Below are positions 1 to 18,008 of a stretch of DNA of 64,000 bases, piece after piece. The notes below the pieces were generated by a model. It had not been told where the DNA came from and searched no databases. It was given only the letters and a program-made list of their open reading frames with translations. The first letter of the stretch is position 1. Each line of letters begins with the position of its first letter. Position numbers and translations under genes: made by a program. Origin of the DNA: Hymenobacter sp. PAMC 26628 (GTDB lineage: Bacteria; Bacteroidota; Bacteroidia; Cytophagales; Hymenobacteraceae). The stretch spans positions 434,001 to 498,000 of the forward strand of contig NZ_CP014304.1 in NCBI RefSeq assembly GCF_001562275.1, in the 5' to 3' direction.

Positions 1-2
1 AC

Positions 3-290
3 CGTTTGCAATTGAAATTCGCCCTCACCCGGCCCAAAATCGAGCCCGGGGCCCTGTACGCGCTGGCTTCGGACGAAATCTTCGTCAGCTACGGCCACAA
101 CGCGCCCGGCTTTTTCAACCAAAACCGCCTCTACGGCGGCCTGGGCTACCAGTTCACCAAGGCCCTGGCCGTGGAGGCCAGCTACCTCAACCAAGTGGTG
201 GCGCACGACGACAACATCGTGTACGAAGACAACCGCACGGTGCAGGTGAGCCTGGCCTTCAACCCCGATTTCCGTTCGGCCCACAAGTAG
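3..290 (+). CDS. C-terminal part of a DUF2490-type outer-membrane protein (5' end outside window)
   Basis: The reading frame is open from the first bases of the window and ends at a TAG at 288-290, so only the last ~95 residues are present. The visible part has alternating hydrophobic/polar strands, LYGGLGYQFTKALAVEASYL near the middle and VSLAFNPDF close to the end, the pattern of the last strands of small Bacteroidota outer-membrane barrels annotated DUF2490. No enzymatic role is known for that family. The start, signal peptide and promoter lie upstream of the window. Family assignment is by recognition of the C-terminal pattern only. Confidence 0.6.
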   Translation, partial: RLQLKFALTRPKIEPGALYALASDEIFVSYGHNAPGFFNQNRLYGGLGYQFTKALAVEASYLNQVVAHDDNIVYEDNRTVQVSLAFNPDFRSAHK

Positions 291-431
291 CGTGGGTGCT
301 GCGCGTTGGCGAGTGAACCGGTGACTGCGCAACTCGCGGGTTCGCAGCGTCCACGCTACAGGCAACTCGCTTGGGAACCAAAAAAAACCGACTTTTGCGG
401 CTTCATTTTTAGCGGCCGCCGGCTGCGCGTT

Positions 432-1379
432 ATGCCTGTTTCTACTTCCTCCGCGCCGTCAAAAGCGGCGTTGTTCACGGCTTTTGCCCTGGTTTACATC
501 ATCTGGGGCTCCACGTACTTGGGCATCCGGTTCGCCATCGAAAGCCTGCCGCCGCTGCTGATGGCGGGCACCCGCTACGCCCTGGCGGGGGCCCTGCTCT
601 ACGGCGCCATGCGGCTGCGCGGGGCCCCGGCGCCGTCGGGGGCCAGCTGGGGGCGGGCCCTGCTGATCGGTATTTGCCTGCTCACCTTCGGCAACGGCGG
701 CGTGACGCTGGGCGAGCAGTACATCCCGTCGGGGCTGGCGGCGCTGCTGGTGGCCACCGTGCCCATGCTGCTGGCGCTGCTGGGCTGGGCCAGCGGGGTG
801 TCGGCGCGGCCCACGCCGGTGGCGGCGCTCGGTTTGGGGCTGGGCCTGGCGGGCGTGTACTTGCTGGCGCGGGCCTCGGGCGGGAGTAGTGCCGTAGCGC
901 AGCCCGGCCACGAGGGCCTCGGCATGGCCTGCGTGCTGGTGGCGGCGCTGGTCTGGGCCATCGGCTCGCTGTACGGCAAGCGGCGGCCGGCGGCGGCCTC
1001 GCCCTTTGTGGCCGGCGGCATGCAAATGCTGTGCGGCGGCCTGGTGATGGTGGTGCTGGGCTTGGCCCGCGGCGAAGCCCAGCAGCTGCACCTGGCGGCG
1101 GTCAGCGCCAAGTCGTGGTGGGCGTATGCGTACCTGGTCACGTTCGGCTCGCTGGTGGCCTTCACGGCCTACGTGTGGCTGCTGCAAGCCGTGGCCCCGG
1201 CCCTGGCCGGCACCTACGCCTTCGTGAACCCGGTGGTGGCCGTGGGCCTGGGCTGGGCCTTCGGCGGCGAGCAGCTGAGCTGGCCGATGCTCGGCGGCGG
1301 GGCCCTGGTGGTGGTGGCCGTGGGCCTGTTGCTGCTGGGCAGCAGGGCCCCGGCGGTGGAAAAGGAATTGGGTGAGTAA
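432..1379 (+). CDS. EamA/DMT-superfamily permease
   Basis: A 315-residue protein with about ten hydrophobic helices arranged as two EamA repeats (roughly residues 8-145 and 165-300). The first helix carries the family's typical YIIWGSTYLGIRFAIESLPP pattern. Members are inner-membrane exporters or importers of amino acids and other small metabolites; the substrate cannot be read from the sequence. ATG at 432 is chosen because the upstream in-frame extension to 306 is polar and does not look like the family, and MPVSTSS directly precedes helix 1. It stands alone, with no co-directional partner close by. Confidence 0.85.
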   Translation: MPVSTSSAPSKAALFTAFALVYIIWGSTYLGIRFAIESLPPLLMAGTRYALAGALLYGAMRLRGAPAPSGASWGRALLIGICLLTFGNGGVTLGEQYIPSGLAALLVATVPMLLALLGWASGVSARPTPVAALGLGLGLAGVYLLARASGGSSAVAQPGHEGLGMACVLVAALVWAIGSLYGKRRPAAASPFVAGGMQMLCGGLVMVVLGLARGEAQQLHLAAVSAKSWWAYAYLVTFGSLVAFTAYVWLLQAVAPALAGTYAFVNPVVAVGLGWAFGGEQLSWPMLGGGALVVVAVGLLLLGSRAPAVEKELGE

Positions 1380-1504
1380 ACGCGAACTGCTGGAAATCAA
1401 GCCACTCCGTTAACCATTAGGTCATACCATTTCTGTTTAGCTAAATCAATTTTAACATTGAAAAGACAGTTTCCACCGTTATGCCAAAACGCAATTTCGT
1501 GGTG

Positions 1505-1957
1505 TCAGTCCATTTTATAAACTTCGTGGCTAAAGCAATTAACCCATACTTCTTTTTCGCCCTTTGCATTAAGTACGGCAACTAATTGGCGCTTGTATTT
1601 GGGTAGGTTAATGATGAAATCATCCGCTTTAAACTCACTTTGGGGTTGTGCCTTTCGCAGCTTTTGAAGCTCAACTGCTTGCGGTCGGTTGTATTCGTCA
1701 ATAGAGGCCCTGAGCAAGGTTTCAACCTGGGCCAATTCCGCTGGAGAAAGCGAAGCAGCTTTCACTTGCCCAGCGTTTTGGAAAATATATTGGTCCCGCT
1801 TCTCGTCATAAGGAAGAACTGCCACGCGGCTCGTGTCCACCACCGGCTGCGGCGCAACTGCTGGGGGCCCTAGTTTCGCTGCTGCTGGTGCTGCTTCGCG
1901 CGCCTGGCAGCTGGTCATCAGGGCGATGAGGGCGGCCAGGGTTCGGAGGAGGAGCAT
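1505..1957 (-). CDS. Small predicted lipoprotein of unknown function
   Basis: A 150-residue protein from ATG at 1957. The N-terminus MLLLRTLAALIALMTSCQA is a lipoprotein signal with a lipobox-like MTSC, so the mature protein should be lipid-anchored at Cys17. The rest is soluble, ends near KEVWVNCFSHEVYKMD and matches no family I recognise. The gene and its 3' flank (about 1390-1800) are visibly richer in A/T than the surroundings, with few GGGGCCC strings, which may indicate acquisition from outside or weak GC selection. A longer in-frame start at 1987 is possible but would put polar residues before the signal. Confidence 0.6.
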   Translation of the reverse strand: MLLLRTLAALIALMTSCQAREAAPAAAKLGPPAVAPQPVVDTSRVAVLPYDEKRDQYIFQNAGQVKAASLSPAELAQVETLLRASIDEYNRPQAVELQKLRKAQPQSEFKADDFIINLPKYKRQLVAVLNAKGEKEVWVNCFSHEVYKMD

Positions 1958-2156
1958 AGGGGCAGTTCGGGCGGTGCGTTGCGGCAAGGTAGTGCCGGTA
2001 GCCCGGGCCGGGGCCCCCGTGTGGGCCGCAGATAGTTACTACATGCGTTGCCAGCGCCTCGCCTGAAGCGCAGATTAGACGCGCTTTCCCAACAAACTGC
2101 TCCGGAAACTGTACCCTGTTCATCCAACAACACCCTTGTTACCCGTTCCAGCCCGC

Positions 2157-2801
2157 ATGCCTGCGCCCACCGAAATTGATAAAGCCCGCCTGTATTTATT
2201 GTACTTACTTAGCCCCTTCGCGCGGAAAGCGCAAGTAGTGGCAACGCCGCCGGTGCTGCGGGTTGTAATCATCCGGCACGGCGAAAAACTGGCTACTGGC
2301 GACAACCTCTCGTGCGCCGGCCTGAACCGGGCCCTGGCCCTGCCCGCCGTGCTCAATAAGCTGATGCCGACCCCGCCCGACTTTACCTACGTGCCGCTTA
2401 TCGGCACTGATGGCAAGGACACGACCAGCATCCGGATGCTGCAAACCGTGATGCCCTACGCGGTGCGCCACAACCTCACCATCAACAGCGACTTCGCCGC
2501 CGAAAATGCCAAGGGCCTCACCAAAATGCTGCGGCGCCACCGTGGCACGGTGCTGCTGATCTGGGAGCACGTCAACATCCTCAAAATCGCTAAAGAGCTG
2601 GGCATCAAAACCCCGCTGGCCTGGCCCGACGCCGATTTTGACAGCATCTGGACCATCAGCTTCAGCGGTGGGGGCCCCAAAGGCAAGGCTAAGTGTCCCA
2701 CGCTGGCGCGGAGCAAAGAGCACATCCGGCCGTCGGTTATCTGCCCGGATTACCGCGGCTTTCGAAGGCGCAAGGTGTTCAGAATCAAAAAAACTATTTG
2801 A
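2157..2801 (+). CDS. Histidine phosphatase superfamily protein
   Basis: A 214-residue protein with the signature VVIIRHGEK about 35 residues from the N-terminus, the phospho-accepting His motif (RHG) of the phosphoglycerate mutase-like branch. LIWEHVNILKIAKEL further on is where the second catalytic His is normally found. Substrate is unknown: the superfamily includes phosphoglycerate mutases, SixA-type phosphohistidine phosphatases and many uncharacterised phosphatases. ATG at 2157 is preferred over an in-frame TTG at 2136. The C-terminus is basic. A palindromic repeat (2813-2914) follows directly. Confidence 0.75.
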   Translation: MPAPTEIDKARLYLLYLLSPFARKAQVVATPPVLRVVIIRHGEKLATGDNLSCAGLNRALALPAVLNKLMPTPPDFTYVPLIGTDGKDTTSIRMLQTVMPYAVRHNLTINSDFAAENAKGLTKMLRRHRGTVLLIWEHVNILKIAKELGIKTPLAWPDADFDSIWTISFSGGGPKGKAKCPTLARSKEHIRPSVICPDYRGFRRRKVFRIKKTI

Positions 2802-2812
2802 ATTAATAAAAC

Positions 2813-2914
2813 GGCCATGCAGAGCGCAGCGAAGCATCTTTCCCGCGTAACTAATCCAATCGATTAAGATTACTGCCGCTAAAAAGATGCTTCGCTGCGC
2901 GCTGCATGACGGCC
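2813..2914. repeat. Dispersed palindromic element, copy 1
   Basis: An imperfect inverted repeat of about 100 bp. The left arm contains GCGCAGCGAAGCATCTTTCC, the right arm AAAAGATGCTTCGCTGCGCG, and the centre has CCAATCGATT. A related copy with the same layout and the same CCAATCGATT centre lies at 41118-41227. It sits between the convergent histidine phosphatase and TonB-dependent receptor genes. It could act as a transcription stop or be a MITE/REP-like element; no coding capacity. Confidence 0.8.
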
Positions 2915-2951
2915 TGATATTGCGCAATTTCTATTTGGGAGTAACGCCTGG

Positions 2952-5597
2952 CTACTGCACGCTGTACGTCACGGCCAGGTAGTAGAGGCCGCCCACGCTG
3001 GGGCCCCCGAGGTAGGTCACGTAGTAGTGGTTCAGCACGTTGCTGGCGCCGAGTTTGAAGCGCAGGTTGGGGGCGGGCACGGCGTAGGTGAGTTGCGCGT
3101 CGAGCGAGTGGTAGGCCGGCACGTCGCCGTTCACCAGGAAGGTTTGCGAGTAGTAGTGCTGCTGCCAGCGGAAGTTGAGGTCGAAGCCGAAGTTGCCGAC
3201 GGCTTTCTCGTTGCCCAGGCTCAGGTTGTAGGCCCAGCGCGGGGTGTTGAAGCCGTCTTCGAGGCCATCGCCGTTCTCGGTGCGGTCGAGGCGGGTGTAG
3301 GTGGTGTTGGCGCCCACGAGGTAGCCGCCGGCCACGTCGTAGCGCAGGCCCAGCGAGCCGCCGTAGTTGTACACCTGGCTCTGCGAGTTCGTCCAGAGGC
3401 GGTAGCGGGCCTGGCCGGTGCGGGCGTTGAGGGCCGTGGCGATGGTGTTCAGGTCGGTGCCGGTGTTCAGGGCTACGCCGGCGCTGGTTTGGGGCACGTA
3501 GGCCTCCACCTGGGCAATGAAGTCGCGGTACGAGTTGTAGTAGAAATCCACGTCGGCCTGCAGGCGGCCGCCGGGGCCCAGCGCGGCCTTGTAGCCCAGC
3601 TCGAGCGAGCGTATGTACTCGGGCTTGAGGTAGGTGTAGGGCGTTTTGACGAGCGTGCCCTGGTTGGCCAAAATGGCAGCAGCGCGCTTCTGAGCCGCGG
3701 TTTGGGCCGAGGTATTGGCGTTGATGTTGGCCGTCACGGCCGCGTTGAAGGCGTCGATGCTCGTGCGCAGGTAGCTGTTCTCAAACACGCCGTCCGACAT
3801 CACCCGCAGCCCGCCGATGCGCTTCACCTGGCCGCTGTTCACGTTGCTGAAGCCCTCGAACAAGCTCGGGAAGCGGTAGCCGCTTTGGTAGCTGAGGCGG
3901 AAGTTGTGGCGCTGCGTGGGCGAGTACACGGCCGTGAGCCGGGGGTTAAATTTGGCGTTGAAGTAGTCGTTTTTGTCAACCCGCAGCGTGGCCGTCAGGC
4001 GCAGCTTGTCGGCCAGCAAGTGGGCCCCGGCCTGCACGAAGCCGCCGGTTTTGCTGTACACCAGGTCGTCGGTCGGGGCGTGTTCCTTCTCCGGGTTGAT
4101 GAAGTAGTTGCCGTCGGGCACCACAATGTAGCTGCGGTGGTCGGCCCCGGCCAGCAGGTCGAGGCCCGCGGGCAGGGCCGTGCCGCCGCGCCGCAGGGCT
4201 TCGGCAATGTTCACCTGGGCCTCGGCGTGGGCCAGGTTGGCGCGCACGCGCAGGGCCGCGCCCACGTCCCAGTTGTTGATGTTCTCCAGGTCCTTCAGCT
4301 TCTGGGCGAAGGCGGCGGTGCCGGGCTGGTAGCGGCCGGCGTCGGCGGCGGTGCGGGCGGTGGCCAGGGCCTGGGCCACGGGCTGGCCGCCGGCGGTGGC
4401 CGTGTTCCAGGCATTGGTGAAGTCCTGGTTCCAGGTGGCGTCGGGCTTGTAGCTGCGGTCGATGTTCTCGGCCGCCGAGCGCAGGTTATAGCTCTGGCCC
4501 GTCGTCTCTTGCGTGAAGTAGGCGCGGGCCTGCACCACGGGGCCCGTGAGCTGCAAGGCGTGCTGCTGCAAGAGGTAGCCTTGCAGCCGGAAGCGGTTCG
4601 AGCGCTGGTACACGTTGTCGAAGCTGGCCACCCGGTAGGTGTAGCTCAGCTCCGATCCGGCGCCCAGCTTGCGGTGCACGGCCAGGTCGCCCTTCAGCGT
4701 GCGCAGGTCGTAGCTGGTCACGTCCTTTTCGTCGTAGCCGGTGCGGGCCACCGAGTAGCTTTTGCCGCCCAGCGTCAGGTTGGTGCGGTCCGACGACTCG
4801 TTGCCGTAGCGGTTCACCTGGTCCTGGGCCGGGTTTTGGGCCCCGAACAGGCCGGTGGTGGCGTTGCCGTTGGGGTTCAGCTCGGTCTGGTCGTTGGCCA
4901 CCCAGTCGTAGCCGCGCAGGTAGGTGCCGTTGATTTTGAAGGCCCACCGGTCCGACAGCGCCTTAGCAAACCGCACGCTGGTTTCGGAGTACGCCTTGGC
5001 CCCCACGTCGGGGTCGTTTACGTGGTTGACGCCCGTTTTCTGCAGCACGCTCAGCCCCTCGAAGCGGAACGGGTTGCGGGTGGCGAAGTTGGCCAGCCCG
5101 TTGATGGCGTTCAGCCCGTACAGGGCCGAGGCCGTACCCGGCACTACCTCCACCGATAAAATATCCAGGTCGCTGGGCCCCAGTACGTTGCCGATGGCAC
5201 CCCCAATGTGCGGCGCCTGGTTGTCGATGCCGTCCACGAGCTGGGCGAAGCGCACGTTGGTAGTGTTGGTGAAGCCCCGGGCGTTGATGACCTTGAAGCC
5301 CAGGCTGGGCGTAATTACCTGCACGCCCTTGAGGTACTCGATGGCGTCGAAGAACGACGGGGCCGGCGTGAGCCGCAGGGCCCGCGGGTTGATTTTCTCC
5401 ACCGTCACCGGCGACTGCAAGATGCTTTCCTCCACCCGTGAGGCGGCCACCACCACCTCGCCCAGGTCTACTTTTGAAGTGTCGCGCTGGGCGGCGCGGC
5501 GCGGGGCCCCCTGGGCGGTGGCGGCGTGTTGGAGAAGAAGTTCGAGGGCCACGGCCGCCGCCGCTGCACCCCGCAAAGAGCGTAATTTATGCGCCAT
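2952..5597 (-). CDS. TonB-dependent outer-membrane receptor, probably ModE-regulated
   Basis: An 881-residue receptor: signal peptide to about residue 28, a TonB-box-like VDLGEVVVAASR (43-54), plug domain about 60-175 (VDGIDNQAPHIGG, VVPGTASALYGLNAINGLAN) and a 22-strand-type barrel to the C-terminus, which ends in YSVQ rather than an aromatic residue. There is no N-terminal carboxypeptidase-like domain and no SusD partner, unlike glycan receptors. It would move a bound ligand through the outer membrane using TonB/ExbBD energy. A ModE-like operator lies 28 bp before the start and a ModE-type gene lies just upstream, so molybdate, tungstate or a chelate of them is the inferred substrate; the sequence of the barrel itself does not prove it. 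Confidence 0.93.
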   Translation of the reverse strand: MAHKLRSLRGAAAAAVALELLLQHAATAQGAPRRAAQRDTSKVDLGEVVVAASRVEESILQSPVTVEKINPRALRLTPAPSFFDAIEYLKGVQVITPSLGFKVINARGFTNTTNVRFAQLVDGIDNQAPHIGGAIGNVLGPSDLDILSVEVVPGTASALYGLNAINGLANFATRNPFRFEGLSVLQKTGVNHVNDPDVGAKAYSETSVRFAKALSDRWAFKINGTYLRGYDWVANDQTELNPNGNATTGLFGAQNPAQDQVNRYGNESSDRTNLTLGGKSYSVARTGYDEKDVTSYDLRTLKGDLAVHRKLGAGSELSYTYRVASFDNVYQRSNRFRLQGYLLQQHALQLTGPVVQARAYFTQETTGQSYNLRSAAENIDRSYKPDATWNQDFTNAWNTATAGGQPVAQALATARTAADAGRYQPGTAAFAQKLKDLENINNWDVGAALRVRANLAHAEAQVNIAEALRRGGTALPAGLDLLAGADHRSYIVVPDGNYFINPEKEHAPTDDLVYSKTGGFVQAGAHLLADKLRLTATLRVDKNDYFNAKFNPRLTAVYSPTQRHNFRLSYQSGYRFPSLFEGFSNVNSGQVKRIGGLRVMSDGVFENSYLRTSIDAFNAAVTANINANTSAQTAAQKRAAAILANQGTLVKTPYTYLKPEYIRSLELGYKAALGPGGRLQADVDFYYNSYRDFIAQVEAYVPQTSAGVALNTGTDLNTIATALNARTGQARYRLWTNSQSQVYNYGGSLGLRYDVAGGYLVGANTTYTRLDRTENGDGLEDGFNTPRWAYNLSLGNEKAVGNFGFDLNFRWQQHYYSQTFLVNGDVPAYHSLDAQLTYAVPAPNLRFKLGASNVLNHYYVTYLGGPSVGGLYYLAVTYSVQ

Positions 5598-5624
5598 GCG
5601 AATTGGTAAAGGCTAATCCCAAAA

Positions 5625-5648
5625 GGTTATATTTTCACAAACATAACG
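5625..5648 (-). promoter_or_regulatory. Putative ModE operator overlapping the receptor promoter
   Basis: Inverted repeat on the + strand: GGTTATATT (5625-5633), 6 bp, AACATAACG (5640-5648); the halves match 7 of 9 as inverted copies. As I recall it, the E. coli modA operator has halves CGTTATATT and TACATAACG with the same 6-bp spacing, so 16 of 18 half-site positions agree. On the minus strand the site contains TATGTTTG (5645-5638), a Bacteroidota -7 element, so a bound regulator would block transcription of the receptor. No good -33 TTG is seen at the usual spacing. Confidence 0.7.
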
Positions 5649-5785
5649 CTTGGTAGCAGCAAAGGTTTGGCCCCCGCGTTAGGGCCCCGGGCTTTCGTCC
5701 CCGTGGTTTTATGGCACAACGGCCGGCCGGCAGCCGGCAAATGCGGGCTGCCCGGGCTGCAAAGCGCGCCGCAGTCCGGGCAGTT

Positions 5786-6145
5786 TTATTCGGCCAAGCG
5801 GCGGGTTTCTTCGGCCAGGAAGGCGTGGAAGCGGGTTTGTACGGCCTGGAAGTCGGCCACAGCCTGGGCCCCGGCGGGAGTGAGCAGGGCCCCACCGCCG
5901 CTTTTGCCGCCGGTTTGGGTGGCCACCAGCGGCGCCAGGGCCTGGGTGTTCATGGAGTGCACCAGGTCCCAGGCACGCTTGTACGACATGCCCATGGCCG
6001 CCGCTGCCCGCGAAATGGAGCCCGTGGCCTGAATTTGGGCCAGCAATTCGAGCCGGCCAATGCCGAGGAACCGGTCGTGGGGCCCCTGCACCCACACGCG
6101 GCCTTCGAGGCGGTAGTCGGCGGGGGCGGGCAGCAGGTCTTTCAT
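5786..6145 (-). CDS. ModE-type winged-helix regulator without molybdate-binding domain
   Basis: A 119-residue protein covering only the DNA-binding half of ModE. The diagnostic strings are GSISRAAAAMGMSYKRAWD (42-60) and TGGKSGGGALLT (78-89), which match the N-terminal helix-turn-helix and wing of ModE/LysR-type molybdenum regulators. E. coli ModE is about 262 residues with two C-terminal Mop domains; these are missing here. It lies between an RsbQ-like hydrolase (90 bp upstream) and the receptor gene (188 bp downstream), all on the minus strand. It probably binds the operator at 5625-5648. How it senses metal without Mop domains is open. Confidence 0.85.
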   Translation of the reverse strand: MKDLLPAPADYRLEGRVWVQGPHDRFLGIGRLELLAQIQATGSISRAAAAMGMSYKRAWDLVHSMNTQALAPLVATQTGGKSGGGALLTPAGAQAVADFQAVQTRFHAFLAEETRRLAE

Positions 6146-6163
6146 AAGCGCAATTTTACGCAG

Positions 6164-6205
6164 AAACGCCGCCGACCGATTCGCACGAATCGGGCCGCGG
6201 CGTTT
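6164..6205 (-). terminator. Large hairpin between hydrolase and ModE-type genes
   Basis: Stem AAACGCCGC (6164-6172) with GCGGCGTTT (6197-6205), and an inner perfect 8-2-8 inverted repeat CCGATTCG-CA-CGAATCGG (6176-6193). It lies just after the stop of the minus-strand hydrolase gene and 19 bp before the ModE-type start. The T tract after the stem on the minus strand is short, so it may be a weak terminator or a regulatory structure for the regulator gene. Confidence 0.55.
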
Positions 6206-6235
6206 TGGCAGGTCCCATTTTTTGCCTGGGCGGCG

Positions 6236-7066
6236 CTACGCAGCCACGGCCTCGGCGTGCAGGAAGCGGTGTATCGCCGCCAGGGTTTCGGCGGGGGCCG
6301 TGAGGTGGGCGCAGTGACCGGGCGTGTCGATGATGCGCAACTGGCTGTTGGGCAGTTGCTCGTGGAGGTAGCGGCCCACGGCTAGGGGTGCAATCACGTC
6401 GTGCGCGCACTGCAATATCAGGGCTGGCGTAGTGAGGTACGGCAGGTCGAGGCGGTGGTCGGAGAGGAACGTGACGCGGGCAAAGTGCTGGGCCAGCGCG
6501 GGGTTGGTTTGGAAAAAGCTGTTAGTCATTTCCGTAATTAGCTCGGGCTGATCGCGGCCCATCATCACGGGGGCCATCGAGCCGACCCAGCTGTGATAGT
6601 TGTTGTCCATGGCCGCCAGCAGCTCGTCGATGTCGGTTTGGGCGAAGCCCCCGGCGTACCCATTAGTGTTGATGAAGCGCGGCGAGGGGGCCAGCAGCAC
6701 CAGCCGCGCAAACCGCCCCGGCTCCTTGATGGCCGCTAGCACCCCAATCATTGAGCTGACCGAGTGACCCACGAACACGACGTCGTGCAAATCCAGCGCG
6801 CGCAGCACGTCGAGCAGGTCGTCGGCGTGGCCTTGCAGCGAGCCGTGGCGCACCCGGTCGTAGGCGGCGCAATCCGACTGCCCGGCGCCCACCAGGTCGA
6901 GGCGCACCACTTGGTAGCGGTCCTCAAAAGCGGGGGCCACCAGCCGCCAGGTGCTTTGGTCGGCGCCTAGACCGTGCAGAAAAACAATGGCCGGGGCCTG
7001 CCCGCCCGCGCCGGTAACCGTAACATTACTGCGCTGCGCCGCCGGGGTGCGTGGGGTATTATTCAT
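6236..7066 (-). CDS. Alpha/beta hydrolase, RsbQ-like
   Basis: A 276-residue alpha/beta hydrolase. FLHGLGADQSTW (29-40) gives the oxyanion region, GHSVSS (100-105) the nucleophile Ser102, CAHDVIAP the acid Asp223 and PGHCAH the His251. The spacing and the GHSVSSMIG/LAPSPRFIN pattern match RsbQ and the related strigolactone-receptor-like hydrolases. In Bacillus RsbQ works with the phosphatase RsbP; no RsbP-like gene is in this window. Start ATG at 7066. A perfect 12-bp palindrome CACAAATTTGTG lies 30 bp upstream (7096-7107) and may be an operator. Confidence 0.85.
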   Translation of the reverse strand: MNNTPRTPAAQRSNVTVTGAGGQAPAIVFLHGLGADQSTWRLVAPAFEDRYQVVRLDLVGAGQSDCAAYDRVRHGSLQGHADDLLDVLRALDLHDVVFVGHSVSSMIGVLAAIKEPGRFARLVLLAPSPRFINTNGYAGGFAQTDIDELLAAMDNNYHSWVGSMAPVMMGRDQPELITEMTNSFFQTNPALAQHFARVTFLSDHRLDLPYLTTPALILQCAHDVIAPLAVGRYLHEQLPNSQLRIIDTPGHCAHLTAPAETLAAIHRFLHAEAVAA

Positions 7067-7224
7067 GATTTGTTTTAATCTGTAGAAAGGAATAACACAA
7101 ATTTGTGACGGGGAATGACGGGGCCAATGGGGACCGTTTGGCCCTTGGCTGAACGGCGTGTGCCAGCCGGCGAAAGCACGCTATTTCTCGGTGAATGTCG
7201 GCACCCCCACTCGACTTCGGCGCC

Positions 7225-8562
7225 TCATACAATGGCCTTGTCTGCGGGCGTGTCGGCGCTGCTGCCCAGCAAGGGCTTGATGCGCCCGATGATGTAGCGC
7301 AGGCCCTTGTCCTGGCTCCAGTAGTTCCAGGCCCAGGTGAAGGCCACGGCGATGCGGCTGCGGTAGTTCACCAGGGCCAGCACGTGCACCAGGCTCCAGG
7401 CCAGCCACGCCAAAAAGCCGCTCAGGTGAAACTCGCGGCCGAAAAACTTGATGTCGGCCACGGCGCGGTTGCGGCCAATGGTGGCCATGCTGCCCTTGTC
7501 GTCGTAGCGGAAGGGCTGCATGAGGTCGCCGGCCAGCAGGCGGCCCAGGTTGCGGCCCAGCAGGCGGCCCTGCTGCAGGGCGGGCTGCGCCACCTGGGGG
7601 TGGCCGTCGGGCGCGGCGGCGGTTTTCATCAGGGCAATGTCGCCGAGGGCAAACACGTTGTCATAGCCCACCACGCGGTTGTGCTCGTCCACCAGGTAGC
7701 GGTTGCCGGGGCCCAGGCACTCGGCACTCAGGCCGGCCACGGGGGCCCCGGTCACGCCCGCCGCCCAAATGAGCGTGCGCGTGACCAGCTTTTTTCCGGT
7801 GCTGAGGGTGGCTGTGTAGCCGTCGTACGACTTTACCCGCGCATCCAGCCACACCTCCACGCCCAGGGCCCGCAGGTCGGCCAGCGACTGCGCCGAGGCC
7901 TCGGCCGACATGCCCTTGAGCAGCACCGGCCCGCTCTGCACCAGGTGAATGTCCATCTGCTTGAAGTCCAGCTCGCGGTAGTCCTGCGGAAACACGTGGG
8001 CCCGCAGCTCGCTCAGGGCCCCGGCCATTTCCACGCCCGTGGGGCCCCCGCCCACTATCACGAAGTCGAGCAGGCTGTTGAGCTGCTCCTGGTCGCCGAG
8101 CTGCAGGGCTTGCTCGAAGTTGGCCAGCAGCGTGTTGCGCAGCTCCAGGGCGTCGCTCACGCTCTTTAGCGTCACGGCGTGCTCCTGCATCAGCTTGTCG
8201 CCGAAGAAGTTGCTGGTGGCCCCGGTGGCCAGCACCAGGTAATCGTAGCGCAGCAGGCCGATGGTGGTTTCCACCACCTGGGCCGTGGCGTCGATGGACT
8301 GCACCTCGGCCAGCCGGAAGTAAAAGTTCTTCTGCTTGCCCAACGCCTTGCGGAACGGGGCCACGATGTTGTCGGCCGCTAGCCCGGCCGTGGCCACCTG
8401 GTACAGCAGCGGCTGGAAGGCGTGGTAGTTGTGCTTGTCGATGAGGACCACTTGCACCGGCACTTTGGCCAAGGACTGCGCCAGCGCCAGCCCCCCAAAG
8501 CCGCCCCCCACAATGACCACCCGCGGCTGGCCCAAATCGTCAATTTTTGTCAGTCCATCCAT
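7225..8562 (-). CDS. ndh: Type II NADH dehydrogenase (FAD/NAD(P)-dependent oxidoreductase)
   Basis: A 445-residue flavoprotein. RVVIVGGGFGGLALAQSLAK (14-33) is the FAD-binding GxGxxG fold and FVIVGGGPTGVEMAG the NADH-binding one. A hydrophobic/amphipathic tail (FLAWLAWSLVHVLALVNYRS) is typical of the membrane-associated non-proton-pumping NADH:quinone oxidoreductase NDH-2. It passes electrons from NADH to menaquinone at the inner face of the cytoplasmic membrane. ATG at 8562 is chosen; a longer in-frame extension to 8793 would overlap the divergent gene and lacks family character. It is divergent from the DUF2141 gene with a 103-bp gap. Confidence 0.9.
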   Translation of the reverse strand: MDGLTKIDDLGQPRVVIVGGGFGGLALAQSLAKVPVQVVLIDKHNYHAFQPLLYQVATAGLAADNIVAPFRKALGKQKNFYFRLAEVQSIDATAQVVETTIGLLRYDYLVLATGATSNFFGDKLMQEHAVTLKSVSDALELRNTLLANFEQALQLGDQEQLNSLLDFVIVGGGPTGVEMAGALSELRAHVFPQDYRELDFKQMDIHLVQSGPVLLKGMSAEASAQSLADLRALGVEVWLDARVKSYDGYTATLSTGKKLVTRTLIWAAGVTGAPVAGLSAECLGPGNRYLVDEHNRVVGYDNVFALGDIALMKTAAAPDGHPQVAQPALQQGRLLGRNLGRLLAGDLMQPFRYDDKGSMATIGRNRAVADIKFFGREFHLSGFLAWLAWSLVHVLALVNYRSRIAVAFTWAWNYWSQDKGLRYIIGRIKPLLGSSADTPADKAIV

Positions 8563-8665
8563 GCCGTAAAGATTGCCAAAGGATGCGGCCTGGAACCCCC
8601 AGGCCCGAACTCTTTCGGCCCCGGGCGGCGTTACAGCCGCACCGTGCTGATTAGTTGTGCTTGCT

Positions 8666-9118
8666 ATGAAGGCTTTACTGTTTTTCTCGCTTTTGGTTGG
8701 CAGCAATTGCGTGGCCAGCGCCGCCGGCCCTGTGGCTGCTCCGGGCCCCGACACCGCGTCCGTCACGGTGGTGGTTACCGGGCTGGCCTCCACCGAGTCG
8801 GTGGTGCGGCTGAACTTCTACCACAGCCCCGAAACCTTCCTTAAGCACGGCCAGCAGGCGTTTCGGCTGGAGGTGAAGCCCAACGGCCAGCACGAAGTAT
8901 CGGTGCCCGTGGACCTGGCCAAGGGCGAGTGGGCCGTGGCCCTCACCCAGGACGTGAACAACAACGACAAGCTCGACAAAAACCTGCTGGGCATCCCCAC
9001 CGAGCCCTACGCGTTTTCCAACAACGTGCGCCCCAAGCTGTCGGCCCCCAACTTCGAGGAGTGCAAGTTCACGGCCGACGCCGATGGCAAAGTGGTGACC
9101 ATCAATCTGGTGGATTAG
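8666..9118 (+). CDS. Exported DUF2141 protein
   Basis: A 150-residue protein with a cleavable signal MKALLFFSLLVGSNCVASAA and the DUF2141 pattern: a beta-rich body with WAVALTQDVNNNDKLDKNLL and GIPTEPYAFSNN. The NNNDKLD loop resembles a calcium-binding loop, as in most members. Function is unknown; it is expected in the periplasm or at the outer membrane. ATG at 8666 is preferred to the in-frame GTG at 8657 because it gives a clean signal peptide. It ends only 4 bp before the convergent DUF6624 gene. Confidence 0.85.
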   Translation: MKALLFFSLLVGSNCVASAAGPVAAPGPDTASVTVVVTGLASTESVVRLNFYHSPETFLKHGQQAFRLEVKPNGQHEVSVPVDLAKGEWAVALTQDVNNNDKLDKNLLGIPTEPYAFSNNVRPKLSAPNFEECKFTADADGKVVTINLVD

Positions 9119-9122
9119 CGGC

Positions 9123-9815
9123 TTAACGTCCTTGGGCCCGCCGCTGCACCTGCTTGGCGTAGTCGAGCGTAACCGGCTGGTAGGGAATGCCGATGGCTGC
9201 CCCGTTTTCCTCCACGGTGGTGGGGAAGCCGGCCTGCTTGCGGCGCTCGTTCACGCGGGCCGCTTCCTTGATGGGCCAAATGAACCGGATGTTTTCTGGG
9301 GCCCCGGTGGCCGGGTTGGGCACGGTGTAGCCCTTGCCCTGCGTGCCGTACAGCTGCTCCTGTCCGTCGTTCATCAGCTGGCGGTCCAGCATTTGGGCGT
9401 AACGATAGAAGGGCAGCTCGCCCGTTTCCGCCGCGGCTTTGAGCAGCGGCAGGTACTGCGGAATTTTATTGGAGTGCTGAATCACCCACCACACCGCCTC
9501 GTTCGTGGGCGTGCCCACCAGCGACTTGCCCGGGTAGCCGTAGCGCCGCACGATGGCCGCCACCCGGCGCATATCAGACGAGTCAGTGCGGATCATGTTG
9601 GTGGATAAATAATTGCCTAGCTCGCCTTTGGCCAGGTGCAGGGCCGCTTCGGTGGCCTCGGCTTTGCCGGGGCCCATGCCCGTCATCATCATTTCGCGGT
9701 ACCGCTGGTCCTGCACGTAAATGCTGTCCAGCTCCCGCTTGAGCGGCAGGTTCAGCTTCGTTTGGGCGAAGGCGGGCGGGGCCAGCAGCAGGGCCAGCGG
9801 CAAAAGGTGCTTCAT
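9123..9815 (-). CDS. Exported DUF6624 protein
   Basis: A 230-residue protein with signal peptide MKHLLPLALLLAPPAFA and a helical body. It shows the DUF6624 features QDQRYR near the start, GYPGKSLVGTPTNEAVWWVIQHS in the middle (positions about 93-115) and WPIKEAARVNERRKQAGFP near the end. No function is known for this family. It faces the DUF2141 gene tail to tail with a 4-bp gap and no room for a separate terminator. Confidence 0.8.
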   Translation of the reverse strand: MKHLLPLALLLAPPAFAQTKLNLPLKRELDSIYVQDQRYREMMMTGMGPGKAEATEAALHLAKGELGNYLSTNMIRTDSSDMRRVAAIVRRYGYPGKSLVGTPTNEAVWWVIQHSNKIPQYLPLLKAAAETGELPFYRYAQMLDRQLMNDGQEQLYGTQGKGYTVPNPATGAPENIRFIWPIKEAARVNERRKQAGFPTTVEENGAAIGIPYQPVTLDYAKQVQRRAQGR

Positions 9816-9855
9816 GCCAACAAGATAGCGCGGCGGCCCAGGAGGGTTGCACGCA

Positions 9856-11121
9856 TCAACCCAGCCGCACTTGCCCGTCGCCGCGCACCAGCCACTTGTA
9901 GCTGGTCAGCTCCTCCAGGCCCATGGGGCCCCGGGCGTGCAGCTTCTGGGTACTGATGCCGATTTCGGCCCCCAGCCCAAATTGGGCCCCGTCGGTGAAG
10001 GCCGTGGAGGCGTTGGCGTACACCGCGGCCGCGTCCACGCGCTGCAAAAAGGTGTCGATGTGGGCCGGCGTTTCCGAAATAATGGCTTCGCTGTGGCGCG
10101 AGCCGTGCCGGGCAATGTGGGCCAGGGCCCCCGCCAGGTCGGGCACCGTTTTGATGGCCATGCGCAGCGCCAAAAACTCGGTGCCGAAGTGCGCCTCGTT
10201 GGCCGGGGCCAGCAGGGCGGCGGGGTAGTGGCCGGCCAGGGCCCCCAGGGCCGGCGCGTCGGCAAAAATCTCCACCCCGGCCGCGGCCAGCGGCGCCGCC
10301 AGCGCCGGCAAGTCGGCCAAACGGCTCGCGTGGATGAGCAGACAGTCGAGCGAGTTGCACACGCTCACGCGGCGGGTTTTGGCGTTGGCGATGATGGCTG
10401 CGCCCTTGGCCAGGTCGCCGCTCGCGTCGAAGTAGGTGTGCACCACGCCCGCCCCGGTTTCGATGACGGGCACCTTGGCGTGCTGGCGCACGTAGTCAAT
10501 CATCCCCTGGCTGCCCCGCGGAATCACCACGTCCACGAAGCCCACGGCCCCGAGCAGGGCCTCGGTGGCGGCGCGGTCGGGCGGGAGCAGCGTGGCCACG
10601 GCACGCGGCAGGCCGTGGCGCTCCAGCACGGGCCCCGCCACGGCCAGCGCCGCCGCGTTGGAGTAAGCTGCGTCGGAGCCGCCCTTCAGCAAGCAGGCGT
10701 TGCCGGTTTTCAGGCACAGCGCCAGGCTGTCGAAGGTCACGTTGGGCCGCGCTTCGTAGATGATGCCGACCACGCCCAGCGGTACCCGTATTTTGCTCAA
10801 ATGCAAGCCGTTGGGCAAGGTCTCGTCGCTAAGCGTCTGGCCGAGCGGCGAGGGCAGGGCGGCCACGTTTTCCAAATCGGCGGCGATGCCGGCCAGGCGC
10901 TCGGCGGTGAGGCGCAGGCGGTCGTGGCGCGGGTCGGCCGCGGGCATGCGGGCCAGGTCGCGGGCATTCTCGGCCAGCAAAAACGGCGTTTCGGCGCGCA
11001 CAGTAGCGGCCAGCTCGCGCAACAGCGCATCGGTGGCGGCGGGCGCCAGGGCCCCCAGCGCGTAGCTGGCCTGCTGGGTAGCAGAGAAAAGGGCGGCGTA
11101 GTGGGTGGCGGTGGCAGTCAT
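9856..11121 (-). CDS. proA: Glutamate-5-semialdehyde dehydrogenase (gamma-glutamyl phosphate reductase)
   Basis: A 421-residue cytosolic enzyme that reduces gamma-glutamyl phosphate to glutamate-5-semialdehyde with NADPH, the second step of proline synthesis. [11 protein letters not shown] (119-129) and the catalytic region [13 protein letters not shown] with Cys255 are diagnostic; [14 protein letters not shown] and the C-terminal [13 protein letters not shown] also fit. ATG at 11121 gives the normal family length; the in-frame extension to 11523 runs through the divergent AraC gene. Its usual partner proB is on the same strand but about 3 kb upstream, separated by AraC, SDR and an IS630 element. 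Confidence 0.95.
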
Positions 11122-11247
11122 GGGCAGCGGAGCAAAAGCTCTGCAAAGAACGGCTTGGGCTGCTGGCTTTTCGCCGGCGGCCCGGTGTCTACCGGGGCCC
11201 GGCCGGTGGGCCCCGCGGCGGGGGCTAGCGGAGTAGTTTGAATGGCA

Positions 11248-11255
11248 TAGCTTTG
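11248..11255 (+). promoter_or_regulatory. Candidate -7 promoter element TAGCTTTG before the AraC-family gene
   Basis: TAGCTTTG fits TAnnTTTG, the Bacteroidota -7 element. It ends only 4 bases before the ATG at 11260, so a start of transcription at the usual distance would fall on or next to the start codon and give a leaderless message. No TTG at the -33 distance is seen. Confidence 0.4.
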
Positions 11256-11259
11256 CGGC

Positions 11260-12159
11260 ATGGAAACGCGGCTGACCCTTGCGGACGTTCACCAGCAGCA
11301 CGGTCGGAACTCGGCCGCTGGGCAGGTTTTGGTGTACCGTTTGGAGGATGTGGCGCGACCCGTCTCGTTCCCGCACCAGCGGCGGGACTTCTATAAAATA
11401 AAGCTGCTGTGCAGCGTGCAGGGCATCCTGGGCTACGCCGACCAGCAAGTGGCGGTGCAGGATTGCGCCCTGATTCTGGCTAACCCCTTGGTTGCCTTTT
11501 CCTGGGAGCGGCTGGCCGGCCACGAAACGGGCTTCGCCTGCTTGTTCACGGAGGAGTTTTTACCGCCGGCGCTGCGCCCCGATGGTGTGGCCGGCTCGCC
11601 GCTGTTCCGGGTGGGGGGCAGCCCGGTGCTGTTCCCCGCGCCGGCAGAAGTACACCGGCTCAGCAACCTCTTTGCGCAACTGCTGGCGGAAGCGCAGTCG
11701 TCGTACGTCAACAAGAACGAGCTGCTGCGCAACTACTTGCAAATCATTTTGCACGAGTTGCTCAAACTAGAGCCGGCCGCGCCCTTCCACCGGCCGGGCA
11801 CGTCCGCCGCTCGCCTCAGCGCGGCGTTTTTGGAGCTGCTGGACCGGCAGTTTCCCATTGCTTCGCCGCAGCACACGCTGCCGCTTAAGAATGCGAACGA
11901 GTTTGCCCAGCATCTGGCTGTGCACACCAACCACCTCAACAAAGCGCTGAAAGACGTGACGGGCAAAACCACCACGGCGCACATCGCCGAAAAGGTAGCC
12001 GCCGAAGCCAAGGCGCTGCTACGCCACAGCGACTGGACCCTGGCGGAAATAGGCTATTGCCTAGGCTTCGGGCACGCCCCCAATTTTAACAGCTTCTTCA
12101 AAAAGCGGACTGGGCAAGCGCCCAATCAGTACCGCCGGCAGCCGGTGGTGGTTTCATAA
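11260..12159 (+). CDS. AraC-family transcriptional regulator
   Basis: A 299-residue regulator. The N-terminal ~170 residues look like the cupin-type ligand domain of AraC proteins ([19 protein letters not shown]). The C-terminal part (about 195-295) has the two helix-turn-helix motifs, including [18 protein letters not shown] and [20 protein letters not shown] followed by [14 protein letters not shown]. It probably controls the short-chain dehydrogenase gene that starts 84 bp downstream in the same direction. This pair lies between proA and proB. Confidence 0.9.
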
Positions 12160-12243
12160 GTTTTGGATTGATTCGCATAACATTGCCCCGCTGCCCGCCG
12201 CGACCTTTGCCTTCCTCAACCACCCAGGTAAAAAGGCAATACC

Positions 12244-12984
12244 ATGGAAAACGGAATAACGGGCAAGGTCGTCGCCATTACGGGGGCGAGCAGCGGCATT
12301 GGCGAAGCCACGGCGCTGCTACTCGCCGCGCAAGGGGCGAAAGTGGTGCTTGGCGCCCGGGGCCCCGAACGCCTGGCGGCGCTGGCGGCCCGCATTGCGG
12401 CGGCGGGCGGCGAGGTAGCCTACGCCCCCACCGACGTGCGGCAGCGCGCCGATGTGGACAAACTAATCCAGCTGGCCACGAGCCGGTACGGCCAGCTAGA
12501 CGTGCTCATCAGCAACGCCGGCGTGATGCCGATTTCGCCCCTCGACGACCTGCGCGTGGCAGATTGGGAGGACATGGTGGACGTCAACCTTAAGGGCGTG
12601 CTGTACGGCATTGCCGCCGCGCTGCCCCTTTTTCGCCAGCAAGGGTTTGGGCACTTCGTCAACACGGCTTCCACCGCGGCGCACAAAACGGTGCCGAACC
12701 AGGCGGTTTATTCCGCCACGAAATTTGCCGTGCGGGCCCTGTCCGAGGGCCTGCGCCAGGAGGCCGGCGCGCACCTGCGCGTCACCGTTATTTCTCCCGG
12801 CTTCGTGCACACAAATTTCGCGGACGGCGTGACCAACCCGGAAGTGAAGGCGCAACTCGAAGCCGCCCGCGACGCCATGGCGCTGCCGCCCGCGGCCATT
12901 GCCCGCGCCATTGCGTTCGCCATTGCGCAACCGGCCAGCGTAGACGTAGGCGAAATCATCGTTCGCCCCACGGCGCAGGGCTAG
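12244..12984 (+). CDS. Short-chain dehydrogenase/reductase (SDR)
   Basis: A 246-residue classical SDR: cofactor motif TGASSGIG (13-20), SNAG (90-93), catalytic Ser143 and Tyr156-x-x-x-Lys160 in VYSATKFAV. It would oxidise or reduce an alcohol/carbonyl with NAD(P)H; substrate unknown. The SISP-type SNAGVMPISPL region is typical of the SDR group often paired with AraC regulators. ATG at 12244. The gene ends 21 bp before the IS630 element. Confidence 0.92.
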   Translation: MENGITGKVVAITGASSGIGEATALLLAAQGAKVVLGARGPERLAALAARIAAAGGEVAYAPTDVRQRADVDKLIQLATSRYGQLDVLISNAGVMPISPLDDLRVADWEDMVDVNLKGVLYGIAAALPLFRQQGFGHFVNTASTAAHKTVPNQAVYSATKFAVRALSEGLRQEAGAHLRVTVISPGFVHTNFADGVTNPEVKAQLEAARDAMALPPAAIARAIAFAIAQPASVDVGEIIVRPTAQG

Positions 12985-13016
12985 CGGCGGGGCCCCGGGG
13001 CCCTAGTAGGTCAAAT

Positions 13017-13682
13017 CTAGCCGGTTGTCGGGTACAACCGTTTGAGTTTGATGCGGGCCTTCTCGGTTGTAAACTGCCAGTTGGTGGGTGCCCCCAGTTG
13101 GTTGCGCGCTAGTTGCCAAGCGTAGCAGTGCGCTTCCAGCGTCGGCCGGTCGGGCACGCGCTGCGGCAGGCCGTGGGTGAGCAGGGCGGCAAACTCGATT
13201 TCAGCCATGTTGAGCCACGAGCCATGCTTGGGGGTGAACACAAATTCCACGCGCTGCAACAGGGCGTGCGCCCGTACCGGGTCAAAAATCTCGTAAAAAG
13301 CGGCGGGCTGGTGCGCCGACAAATTGTCGAGCACCAGCGTCACGCGCGTCGCTTGGGCGTAGTCCTCCTCCAGCAGGCGGGCTACCGCCCGGGCAAACGT
13401 GAGTCGGTCATGGCGGTCTTCGACCTGCACCCGGCGGCGACCGGCCAGCGGCTCGTGCAGCATATACACCTGGGCCACGCCCTGGCGGTGGTACTCGCAG
13501 TCGTAGCGGGTGCTGCCATCGGGCAGCGGGAGTGGCACGCGGCTTTCGCGTAGTAATTGCTTGGGCGACTCATCCAGGCACACGACTGGCTGGGCTGGGT
13601 CGTACGGGCGTTGGTAGACGTCAAGCACCCGTTCCATGGCGCAGACGAAGGCCGCGTTCTGAGCGGGTGGAATCACCCACAT
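13017..13682 (-). CDS. IS630 transposase, C-terminal DDE catalytic part
   Basis: This frame carries the catalytic core: VVCLDESPKQLL (first Asp), VTLVLDNLSAHQP (second Asp) and TPKHGSWLNMAEIEFAALL (Glu), the DDE triad of IS630/Tc1-type transposases. The frame stays open upstream of its first ATG (13682); there LQPWKRQMWVIPPAQNAAFV reads as the normal linker between DNA-binding and catalytic parts. It is therefore most likely expressed as a fusion with the upstream frame by -1 frameshifting at 13708-13715. The stop codon lies inside the left terminal repeat. Confidence 0.88.
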   Translation of the reverse strand: MWVIPPAQNAAFVCAMERVLDVYQRPYDPAQPVVCLDESPKQLLRESRVPLPLPDGSTRYDCEYHRQGVAQVYMLHEPLAGRRRVQVEDRHDRLTFARAVARLLEEDYAQATRVTLVLDNLSAHQPAAFYEIFDPVRAHALLQRVEFVFTPKHGSWLNMAEIEFAALLTHGLPQRVPDRPTLEAHCYAWQLARNQLGAPTNWQFTTEKARIKLKRLYPTTG

Positions 13683-14140
13683 CTGTCGCTTCCAGGGCTG
13701 TAACGCATTTTTTTTAGTACCCGCCCCACCATCGCCGGGCTGGCCTCGGGCAGCACCTGCAGCGTGACCAGGTGAGCGGCCAACAAGCGCAATGTCCAGT
13801 GGGCGTACCCTTCGGGCGGGGTGGAGCAGGCCGCCGCGGCCAGGTGCGCCTCCACCTCCCCGGTGTACTTACTGGCCGGCCACTGCTGGCGGGGCTGCCC
13901 CAGCAGGGCGGCCTCCACGCCCGCCTCGCAGGCGCGTTGGCGCAGGCGCTCCAGGGTGCGCGTACTCACGCCGTAGGCTTGGCTAGTCTGGGTGTCGCTC
14001 CAGTTCAAGCCGTTTGTAGCTACGGCCAACAGGCACTGAGCCCGCACAAGCCGGGCGCTGGCCACGCGCCGCTGCTGCACGAGTTCCGTTAGCGAGGCCT
14101 GTTCTTCGGCCCTCAGCGCTAAGACATAATACTTCGCCAT
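13673..14140 (-). CDS. IS630 transposase, N-terminal DNA-binding part
   Basis: A 155-residue frame from ATG at 14140. It holds the helix-turn-helix region of IS630 transposases (NWSDTQTSQAYGVSTRTLER) and a second helical part (WTLRLLAAHLV ... ASPAMVGRVLKKM). It overlaps the catalytic frame by 10 bp. The terminal ~15 residues (RYSPGSDRCG) after the A-run do not fit the family, whereas the other frame does, which supports frameshifting rather than a finished protein. Confidence 0.85.
   Translation of the reverse strand: MAKYYVLALRAEEQASLTELVQQRRVASARLVRAQCLLAVATNGLNWSDTQTSQAYGVSTRTLERLRQRACEAGVEAALLGQPRQQWPASKYTGEVEAHLAAAACSTPPEGYAHWTLRLLAAHLVTLQVLPEASPAMVGRVLKKMRYSPGSDRCG
13708..13715 (-). 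other. A8 slippery run, probable -1 frameshift site in the transposase
   Basis: On the minus strand the reading is CTA AAA AAA ATG CGT in the first frame; slipping back one base gives AAA AAT GCG TTA CAG and continues as NALQPWKRQMW, the family's normal linker. A-AAA-AAA is a classic heptamer for programmed -1 frameshifting, and eight A residues could also allow polymerase slippage. A simple inactivating mutation is the alternative. Confidence 0.65.
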
Positions 14141-14182
14141 TTGTCAGGTCATTTTACCCGACAAGATACTAGATTTATCCTA

Positions 14183-15274: not shown

Positions 15275-15328
15275 GGGGGCAAAAATACCGGGCCGGCGCT
15301 GCGCTACGGTCCCGGCCGGCGCGAAATC

Positions 15329-16027
15329 TCAGGTAAGAAACTCGGACGCGCCCGTGTCGAGCTGGTAATAAGCCCCGACGATCAGCAACTGCTGGCTGGC
15401 CACGGCCTGCGACAGGATTTTGGAGTTTTGTAGGCGGTCGATGGTTATCTGCACGTTGGCCTTCACCACGTTGGCGTACCGAACGTCGCCGTCGCCCTTG
15501 GCCAGCACCACGGCCGGCCGGATGGCATCGACGAGGGTTTCCATGTCGCCGGGCGCCAATTGGCCCGAATTGATGGAGTCGAGCGTGGCCTTGATGGCCC
15601 CGCAGCGCTGGTGCCCCATCACCACCAGCAAGGGCACGTGCAACTCGGCCACCGCAAACTCTAAGGTGCCAATCACCGCGTCGTCCAGGGCGTGGCCGGC
15701 GGTGCGCACCACGAACAGGTCGCCTAGGCCCATGTCAAAAATAAGCTCGGGCGACTCCCGCGAGTCGGAACAGGCCAGTACCGTGGCTATTGGGGTTTGC
15801 TTCAAAGCCACTTCGCGGCGGCGTTGCAGGGTTTCGTTGGGGTGCTGCAACTGGCCTTTCTGGAAGCGCAGATTGCCGGCCTGGAGCTTGCGCAACGCCT
15901 CGGCCGCCGGTGGGACGGGCGCCGCGCCAGCGCCCCGAACGAAGGAGACGGGTAGGGCGGCGGCCAGCAGGCCCAGCCCAGCGCGCTGCAAAAAGGTGCG
16001 GCGCGGCGTGTTTTCAGAGAATGACAT
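15329..16027 (-). CDS. Beta-type carbonic anhydrase with twin-arginine signal
   Basis: A 232-residue beta-carbonic anhydrase. Zinc ligands are visible as Cys86 and Asp88 in ACSDSR, His139 and Cys142 in GHQRCG. The N-terminus has PRRTFLQRAGLGLLAAALPV, a twin-arginine signal, so the folded zinc enzyme would be exported to the periplasm and interconvert CO2 and bicarbonate there. ATG at 16027 is chosen because it places the Arg pair at 9-10; an in-frame extension to 16117 would push it inward. It starts 23 bp after the end of the aldo/keto reductase gene, so the two are probably co-transcribed. Confidence 0.92.
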   Translation of the reverse strand: MSFSENTPRRTFLQRAGLGLLAAALPVSFVRGAGAAPVPPAAEALRKLQAGNLRFQKGQLQHPNETLQRRREVALKQTPIATVLACSDSRESPELIFDMGLGDLFVVRTAGHALDDAVIGTLEFAVAELHVPLLVVMGHQRCGAIKATLDSINSGQLAPGDMETLVDAIRPAVVLAKGDGDVRYANVVKANVQITIDRLQNSKILSQAVASQQLLIVGAYYQLDTGASEFLT

Positions 16028-16050
16028 GGTACTGAACGCTAAACGAATGT

Positions 16051-17977: not shown

Positions 17978-18008
17978 CGCCGTCGCCCCGGCTTGCGAGC
18001 TGCTCATA

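Follow-up and report, generated by a model that had tools for sequence, protein, structure and literature searches.

A TonB-dependent receptor gene next to a ModE-type regulator

We analyzed a stretch of 64,000 nucleotides of the Hymenobacter sp. PAMC 26628 genome (hereafter the window), in which an earlier note, made from the sequence alone, had proposed that a ModE-type regulator controls a TonB-dependent receptor gene for the uptake of molybdate, tungstate or a chelate. The locus comprises two genes on the minus strand and an inverted repeat between them:

2952 to 5597, minus strand: TonB-dependent receptor of 881 amino acids, plug and barrel (open reading frame and Pfam)
5625 to 5648, no strand assigned: ModE box, a 9-6-9 inverted repeat with its core at 5626-5647 (sequence match, kept before orthologues)
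5638 to 5645, minus strand: candidate -7 promoter element TATGTTTG inside the box (from sequence; uncertain)
5786 to 6145, minus strand: single-domain ModE-type regulator of 119 amino acids, winged helix only (Pfam, TIGRFAM and PDB profile matches)

The receptor exceeds the Pfam cut-offs for both PF07715 (plug) and PF00593 (barrel), and by-eye judgement alone assigns it an N-terminal hydrophobic stretch, a putative secretion signal, and an EVVVAA-type motif. The box reads GGTTATATT-TTCACA-AACATAACG and differs from CGTTATATT-N6-TACATAACG at two of the 18 half-site positions. This is the palindrome that the earlier note had described, with 16 of 18 positions in agreement, and it is the only match at up to three mismatches in the window, against none in 100 shuffles. 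It ends 27 bp ahead of the receptor ATG (5597, minus strand), where the note had counted 28 bp. The -7 element that the note placed inside the box holds in part: TATGTTTG does occur on the minus strand, yet only 25 of 65 orthologous boxes keep TAnnTTTG at that place, which leaves the overlap with a promoter a weak detail.

The regulator consists of a DNA-binding domain

The next gene upstream encodes a ModE-type DNA-binding domain, as had been claimed: the 119-residue product scored above the cut-off for PF00126, the winged-helix test for ModE, and matched the profile of E. coli ModE. Its best solved relatives by profile were 2ijl (135 amino acids, E=3e-26) and E. coli ModE itself (1b9m, E=1.3e-19), and it matched TIGR00637 with E=2.8e-22 and 78.6 bits, under the cut-off of 98.5. 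The C-terminal Mop/TOBE molybdate-binding domains are absent from the protein. A TOBE search found none in the 37 genomes of the genus in our relatives set, with 12 of 14 controls positive; it also missed the ModC of the window's own genome, so weak or divergent TOBE domains can escape it. A single-domain ModE occurs in Desulfovibrio, where the sensing mechanism is called unclear in the available text of PMC545781.

The box is conserved before receptor orthologues

We compared the locus with relatives in several samples. A first set holds ModE loci from 31 of 59 genomes, own genome included. The second holds 80 ModE loci, the best 80 of 269 matches in named genomes, and the 65 of these with both ModE and receptor were used for box statistics. 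The receptor was scored there by tblastn (at least 150 bits, downstream of ModE, same strand); the one at L182 was placed by tblastn only, with no traceable reading frame. ModE and the receptor (E<=1e-250) were also counted across 101 genus genomes, among them that of the window, and transport and cofactor genes (moaA, modB and MOT1) and TOBE domains in the 37 genus genomes of the relatives set. The box was scored as GTTATRTY-N6-RAYATAAC, mostly flanked by C and G, which gives CGTTATRTY-N6-RAYATAACG.

Of the 65 loci, 64 carry the box at no more than one mismatch before the receptor or before a two-gene operon that holds it (no mismatch in 49, one in 15, three in L178), and the earlier claim thus withstood the check on conservation upstream of orthologous receptors. 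The outer C is kept in 64 boxes and the outer G in 60, and the half-sites are nearly fixed while the central six bases vary, a pattern expected of a protein operator. Where no gene intervenes, the box ends 2-29 nt from the start codon in 43 of 50 loci, distances that lean short because the start was placed at the first ATG following the box. Such closeness to the receptor start would fit repression. A predicted 9-6-9 operator ahead of target genes, as is characteristic of ModE, is found here.

Among loci L012-L040, the receptor adjoins ModE within 1.5-kb flanks in 24 of 29 (all except L016, L017, L021, L039 and L040). Fibrella (L181) combines ModE, a one-mismatch box and a receptor at 54% identity; for the 51%-identical receptor of G040, no box at up to three mismatches was found in the 16 kb examined (L109). 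The 15 loci of the 80 without a nearby receptor belong to Arcicella, a Cytophagales metagenome-assembled genome, Emticicia, Fibrivirga, Spirosoma, Siphonobacter, Xanthocytophaga, Runella and one Hymenobacter (L176), and five of them have a box at up to two mismatches (L153, L157, L164, L169 and L184).

The box travels with the receptor

We further examined loci where regulator and receptor are separated. At eight loci ModE is 1.1-2.5 kb away and the box is still at the receptor (L097, L104, L130, L141, L144, L147, L150 and L161); in the last six, the box is over 1 kb from ModE but 2-113 nt from the called receptor start. The receptor keeps a perfect box in G032, where ModE is on the same contig 3.2 Mb off, and in G008, where it is on another contig (L095 and L096). 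The box also stays with the receptor where ModE is on another contig, as at L108 and in G046, where a one-mismatch box stands just before a 58%-identical receptor.

Across the 101 genomes, ModE was found in 84 and the receptor in 89. The receptor occurs in 82 of the 84 genomes with ModE versus seven of the 17 without, although the genomes are related, so test values for this co-occurrence overstate independence. The two ModE genomes without a receptor match hold a partial receptor gene at a perfect box, cut by a contig end in G122 and apparently broken in G061. Among the 82, whose upstream region was read in part of the genomes, the receptor gene is split in G112, has one in-frame stop in G085 and is cut short in G028. 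We also observed that the gene appears broken at L202 (G061) and L207 (G112) despite ModE and a perfect box.

Six of the seven genomes with a receptor but no ModE have no nearby box (G004, G027, G030, G036, G089 and G121), in searches at up to three mismatches for L100-L103 and up to four for L200 and L201. Altogether, the ModE control that the earlier note had predicted is strongly supported at the level of sequence: the box is conserved, goes where the receptor goes, is missing along with ModE in six of seven genomes and recurs at other molybdenum genes, as described below.

Boxes precede other molybdenum genes

In the 5.37-Mb genome of the window, the window site is the only exact match to our first pattern, GTTATATT-N7-ACATAAC, and the next best sites have two mismatches. 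At up to three mismatches, 17 sites matched the forward pattern versus 21 and 24 for the backwards control, so only the best few are meaningful. Two sites with two mismatches to this pattern precede an ABC-type ATPase gene (L004) and no called gene (L005), and one with three (C2:3973150) is the modA site of this genome. Scored as a two-mismatch box, the modA site is some 97 bp upstream of where modA is called to start (L098). The same genome has a one-mismatch box between fdhD, which is followed by a PF00384 molybdopterin oxidoreductase gene, and the gene of a secreted PF00174 protein (L110).

The 9-6-9 repeat was also sought near modABC, a check proposed with the original claim, and a site upstream of modA was found in all nine genus genomes with modB, at one to four mismatches (up to three in eight of them). 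modABC thus appears among the predicted targets, as is typical of ModE. In 736 kb of loci, seven sites had exactly three mismatches and 52 exactly four, versus four and 69 in the reversed sequence, so the single four-mismatch modA site (G014) would mean little alone.

In five genomes (G013, G076, G100, G119 and G077; L091-L094 and L105), a box lies upstream of a 2Fe-2S/FAD/MoCoBD-type hydroxylase operon, an assignment for which Pfam was run on one L091 subunit only. In four of five loci these boxes stand some 250-340 bp ahead of the first gene called (the L094 gene start is poorly called), a distance that would fit activation. E. coli ModE also activates some targets. Behind the receptor of G033 and of G021 come moeB-rhodanese, moaA, moaD-like and moaE genes (Pfam on the L097 genes), and in six of the nine modABC genomes moaA is 1.4-4.6 kb downstream on the same strand. 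Boxes before modA, Mo-hydroxylase operons, the fdhD/formate-dehydrogenase-type gene and the PF00174 protein place the receptor in a molybdenum regulon, and the case that this ModE-type regulon is real and conserved is strong, as far as sequence can tell.

In Arcicella and the Cytophagales metagenome-assembled genome, a TauE/SafE-type permease (PF01925) follows the box that comes after ModE; in Emticicia (L184) a two-mismatch box stands before such a permease and another box before a PF00174 protein. The permeases found after ModE, assigned by Pfam in L153, L157 and L184 and by eye in L164 and L169, are:

L157, 8465-9202: TauE/SafE-type permease (PF01925)
L164, 8471-9208: TauE/SafE-type permease
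L169, 2086-2823: TauE/SafE-type permease
L153, 2247-2984: TauE/SafE-type permease (PF01925)
L184, 8426-9181: TauE/SafE-type permease (PF01925)

As a side observation, this unexpected family is a candidate molybdate/tungstate inner-membrane transporter. In eight of the nine modABC genomes, all except G026, a second apparent TonB-dependent receptor (checked by Pfam on L098 only) closely precedes modABC in the same orientation, and the box lies in the gap ahead of modA:

L098, 7219-9675: second apparent receptor
L099, 758-3196: second apparent receptor
L204, 3378-5501: second apparent receptor
L075, L076, L077, L079 and L080: gene ends of the second apparent receptor

Inner-membrane transport and cofactor synthesis

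moaA scored above cut-off in all 37 genus genomes. modB did so in nine and a two-repeat MOT1 (PF16983, best repeat at least 94 bits) was found in 27, the two never together; G028, which is 82% complete, has neither. The MOT1 count leaves out weaker PF16983 hits of about 22-37 bits in longer reading frames, which narrowly exceeded the cut-off in G014 and G033, both with modB. With ModABC or MOT1 in 36 of 37 genomes and moaA in every one, an inner-membrane route exists that the receptor could feed. We had considered that such a route might be missing, since modB is absent from most genomes, and rejected this once MOT1 was found in 27.

A PruR-like protein accompanies some receptors

More than 400 bp separate box and receptor in 15 of the 65 loci, and in 13 of these the gap holds a PF00174-type open reading frame of 161-188 amino acids. 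In the other two, L139 was read in the wrong frame and L165 matches a PF00174-type protein in part only. Pfam confirmed PF00174 on the L110, L133, L143, L157 and L184 proteins, and the secretion signal was judged by eye. A model of the L143 protein (predicted local distance difference test score, pLDDT, 81.5) matches the pterin-binding protein PruR (7kom, 7kos and 7kp2) and sulfite-oxidase-type enzymes, with a template modeling (TM) score of 0.78 by target length against 7kom. As in PruR, the protein is a secreted single domain of the SUOX fold with about 170 amino acids. Two of these PruR-like secreted PF00174 proteins under ModE-type boxes are:

L110, 6039-6551: PruR-like PF00174 secreted protein
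L143, 8450-8980: PruR-like PF00174 secreted protein

We also noted a PF00174 subgroup with two cysteines, for example in L125, L133, L170 and L178. By eye, and with no DcpA search run, a DcpA-type partner was not recognised near the PF00174 genes, whose neighbours are ModE, the receptor, FdhD and TauE-type genes.

A probable role in molybdenum import

From the box, its conservation, its linkage to the receptor and the boxes at other molybdenum genes, all read in the DNA, we infer ModE binding, repression, a metal signal and a cargo. Single-domain ModE would bind CGTTATRTY-N6-RAYATAACG where the receptor gene, or the operon for the PruR-like protein and the receptor, begins. With sufficient molybdenum in the cell, bound ModE would block receptor transcription, and under molybdenum shortage the TonB-dependent receptor would be made. 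It would then pull molybdenum over the outer membrane, with a Mo(VI) chelate or a scavenged oxyanion as the likeliest form, and molybdate would cross the inner membrane by ModABC or MOT1, depending on the species. That a ModE-repressed receptor imports molybdenum across the outer membrane is the best overall explanation, and we consider it probable. Its cargo may be molybdate, tungstate, a chelate or a Mo-pterin, which is a founded guess.

Several observations weigh against this explanation. With no molybdate-binding domains in the regulator and no TOBE domain detected in the 37 genomes, the signal could be another one. G116 has no ModE and keeps a one-mismatch box at its receptor, while three genomes with both genes have only weaker sites before the receptor (three mismatches in G070, two each in G109 and G012). 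Ten of the 15 receptor-less ModE loci show no box at up to two mismatches in the DNA examined, and none was found at the two MOT1 loci of the genus examined (L193 and L194). The ABC-type ATPase gene at L004 shows no visible tie to molybdenum. Finally, boxes at up to one mismatch occur somewhere in eight of the ten genus genomes that lack both ModE and the receptor, and genome-wide box matches number 112 versus 40 in the backwards control (summed by hand). Genome-wide counts therefore prove little and it is the position of the box that informs; we dropped such counts as a main argument.

We then weighed other explanations for the receptor. It could import an organic compound that a molybdenum enzyme uses, for instance the substrate of a neighbouring Mo-hydroxylase, with ModE tying its expression to molybdenum supply. 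The receptor indeed lies beside the hydroxylase operon with its own box in L091-L094 and L105, and beside such an operon in the ModE-less L101 and L102. However, its neighbour is not constant, being moeB-moaA-moaD-moaE in L097 and L104 and nothing visibly related in the window, and the distant hydroxylase boxes in four of five loci, set against the receptor box near its start, suggest different regulation. We regard this explanation as possible but unlikely.

The PruR-like protein raises the prospect that it and the receptor import a Mo-pterin, the molybdenum cofactor (Moco) itself or a pterin chelate of molybdate. The protein stands between box and receptor in the 13 long-gap loci, is under its own box in the window's genome and in Emticicia, and one model of it resembles both pterin-binding PruR and sulfite-oxidase-type enzymes. 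But it is not between box and receptor in 50 of 65 loci, and with moaA in every one of the 37 genomes Moco salvage is not required, for which reason we demoted it as the main explanation. PruR is a periplasmic pterin-binding protein without the molybdenum-ligating cysteine, and the available text of a 2026 review describes its site as truncated and likely unable to hold Moco (PMC13259868). We therefore hold import of this kind to be rather improbable, and give equally little credence to the idea that a ModE-controlled receptor and a PruR-like pterin binder might form an active salvage system for pterin-bound molybdenum, by analogy with BtuB and cobalamin.

The best fold matches of the receptor model are the catecholate receptors PfeA, Cir and FepA, and a PDB sequence search with the receptor found Cir alone. 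The receptor might thus be a catecholate-type iron receptor, with crosstalk between iron chelators and molybdenum as the reason for its ModE control; Mo(VI), too, is bound by catecholates. Yet these matches are at the level of fold (10-14% identity), from a middling model (pLDDT 64.7) that is weak in the plug, which makes the binding pocket unreadable. Moreover, the common context of the receptor loci is molybdenum, and no siderophore genes were recognised there by eye, with no dedicated search run. This explanation appears very unlikely. It is hardly credible that the palindrome is no ModE operator but belongs to the 3' end of modE or forms an RNA hairpin. In the window it does sit in the stretch that separates modE from the receptor gene, both on one strand, but elsewhere it remains at receptors that are not linked to modE, and it is found again ahead of modA and of Mo-hydroxylase genes. 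On the gene strand of the 65 boxes its variable pair is G.T in 21 and A.C in nine, the latter of which would weaken an RNA stem.

Other features of the window

Just downstream of the receptor gene, at 2816-2908, lies a long inverted repeat with 41-nt arms, 83% complementary and 11 nt apart, a candidate terminator or mobile-element remnant. An Rfam search of window positions 1-20000 gave no matches. At 13017-14140, a transposase that we take to be IS630-like is split over two frames into HTH_32 and DDE_3 halves, flanked by an amino-acid-kinase/PUA gene (proB-like, 14183-15274) and an aldehyde-dehydrogenase-family gene (proA-like, 9856-11121). The proB-like and proA-like counterparts adjoin directly in L106.

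Discussion

The Hymenobacter regulator shares a homologous DNA-binding domain with E. coli ModE, and boxes precede modA here too. The E. coli consensus, given as ATCGNTATATA-[N6]-TATATANCGAT in the available text of PMC545781, has similar half-sites and the same 6-bp spacing. In contrast to E. coli ModE, the Hymenobacter protein is without molybdate-binding domains, and whereas E. coli ModE controls modABC, the most widely conserved target found here is a TonB-dependent receptor, with modB in only nine of 37 genomes. The Desulfovibrio protein likewise consists of the DNA-binding domain alone, but the site predicted for it near modABC in the same text is CGGTCACG-N14-CGTGACCG, while the Hymenobacter site is E. 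coli-like and precedes the receptor.

The receptor shares plug and barrel architecture and fold matches with BtuB, OprC and PfeA, TonB-dependent receptors for metals or their complexes, from which it differs in sequence (10-14% identity in the fold matches). To our knowledge, none of the three is under ModE control. The PruR-like protein resembles PruR as a secreted SUOX-fold protein of about 170-180 amino acids (for PruR, in the available text of PMC13259868); it differs in having a ModE box and a TonB-dependent receptor linked to it, and its pterin binding is putative. MOT1 is a molybdate permease family whose role here rests on the family name, and, unlike the receptor, it lacks a box at the two genus loci noted above. 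We found no earlier description of a ModE-controlled TonB-dependent receptor among the open-licence PubMed Central papers listed, judged by title and start of abstract, and a prior prediction in a subscription paper is possible.

Our analysis raises a second question, which is how a ModE without sensor domains reads molybdenum. As for the receptor, Hymenobacter may actively import molybdenum, or a molecule that carries it, through the outer membrane, rather than depend on seepage through pores. Since the receptor is kept across most of the genus and tied to a molybdenum regulator, energised uptake of molybdenum or tungsten across the outer membrane becomes directly testable. If true, molybdenum would join the metals imported by TonB-dependent receptors.

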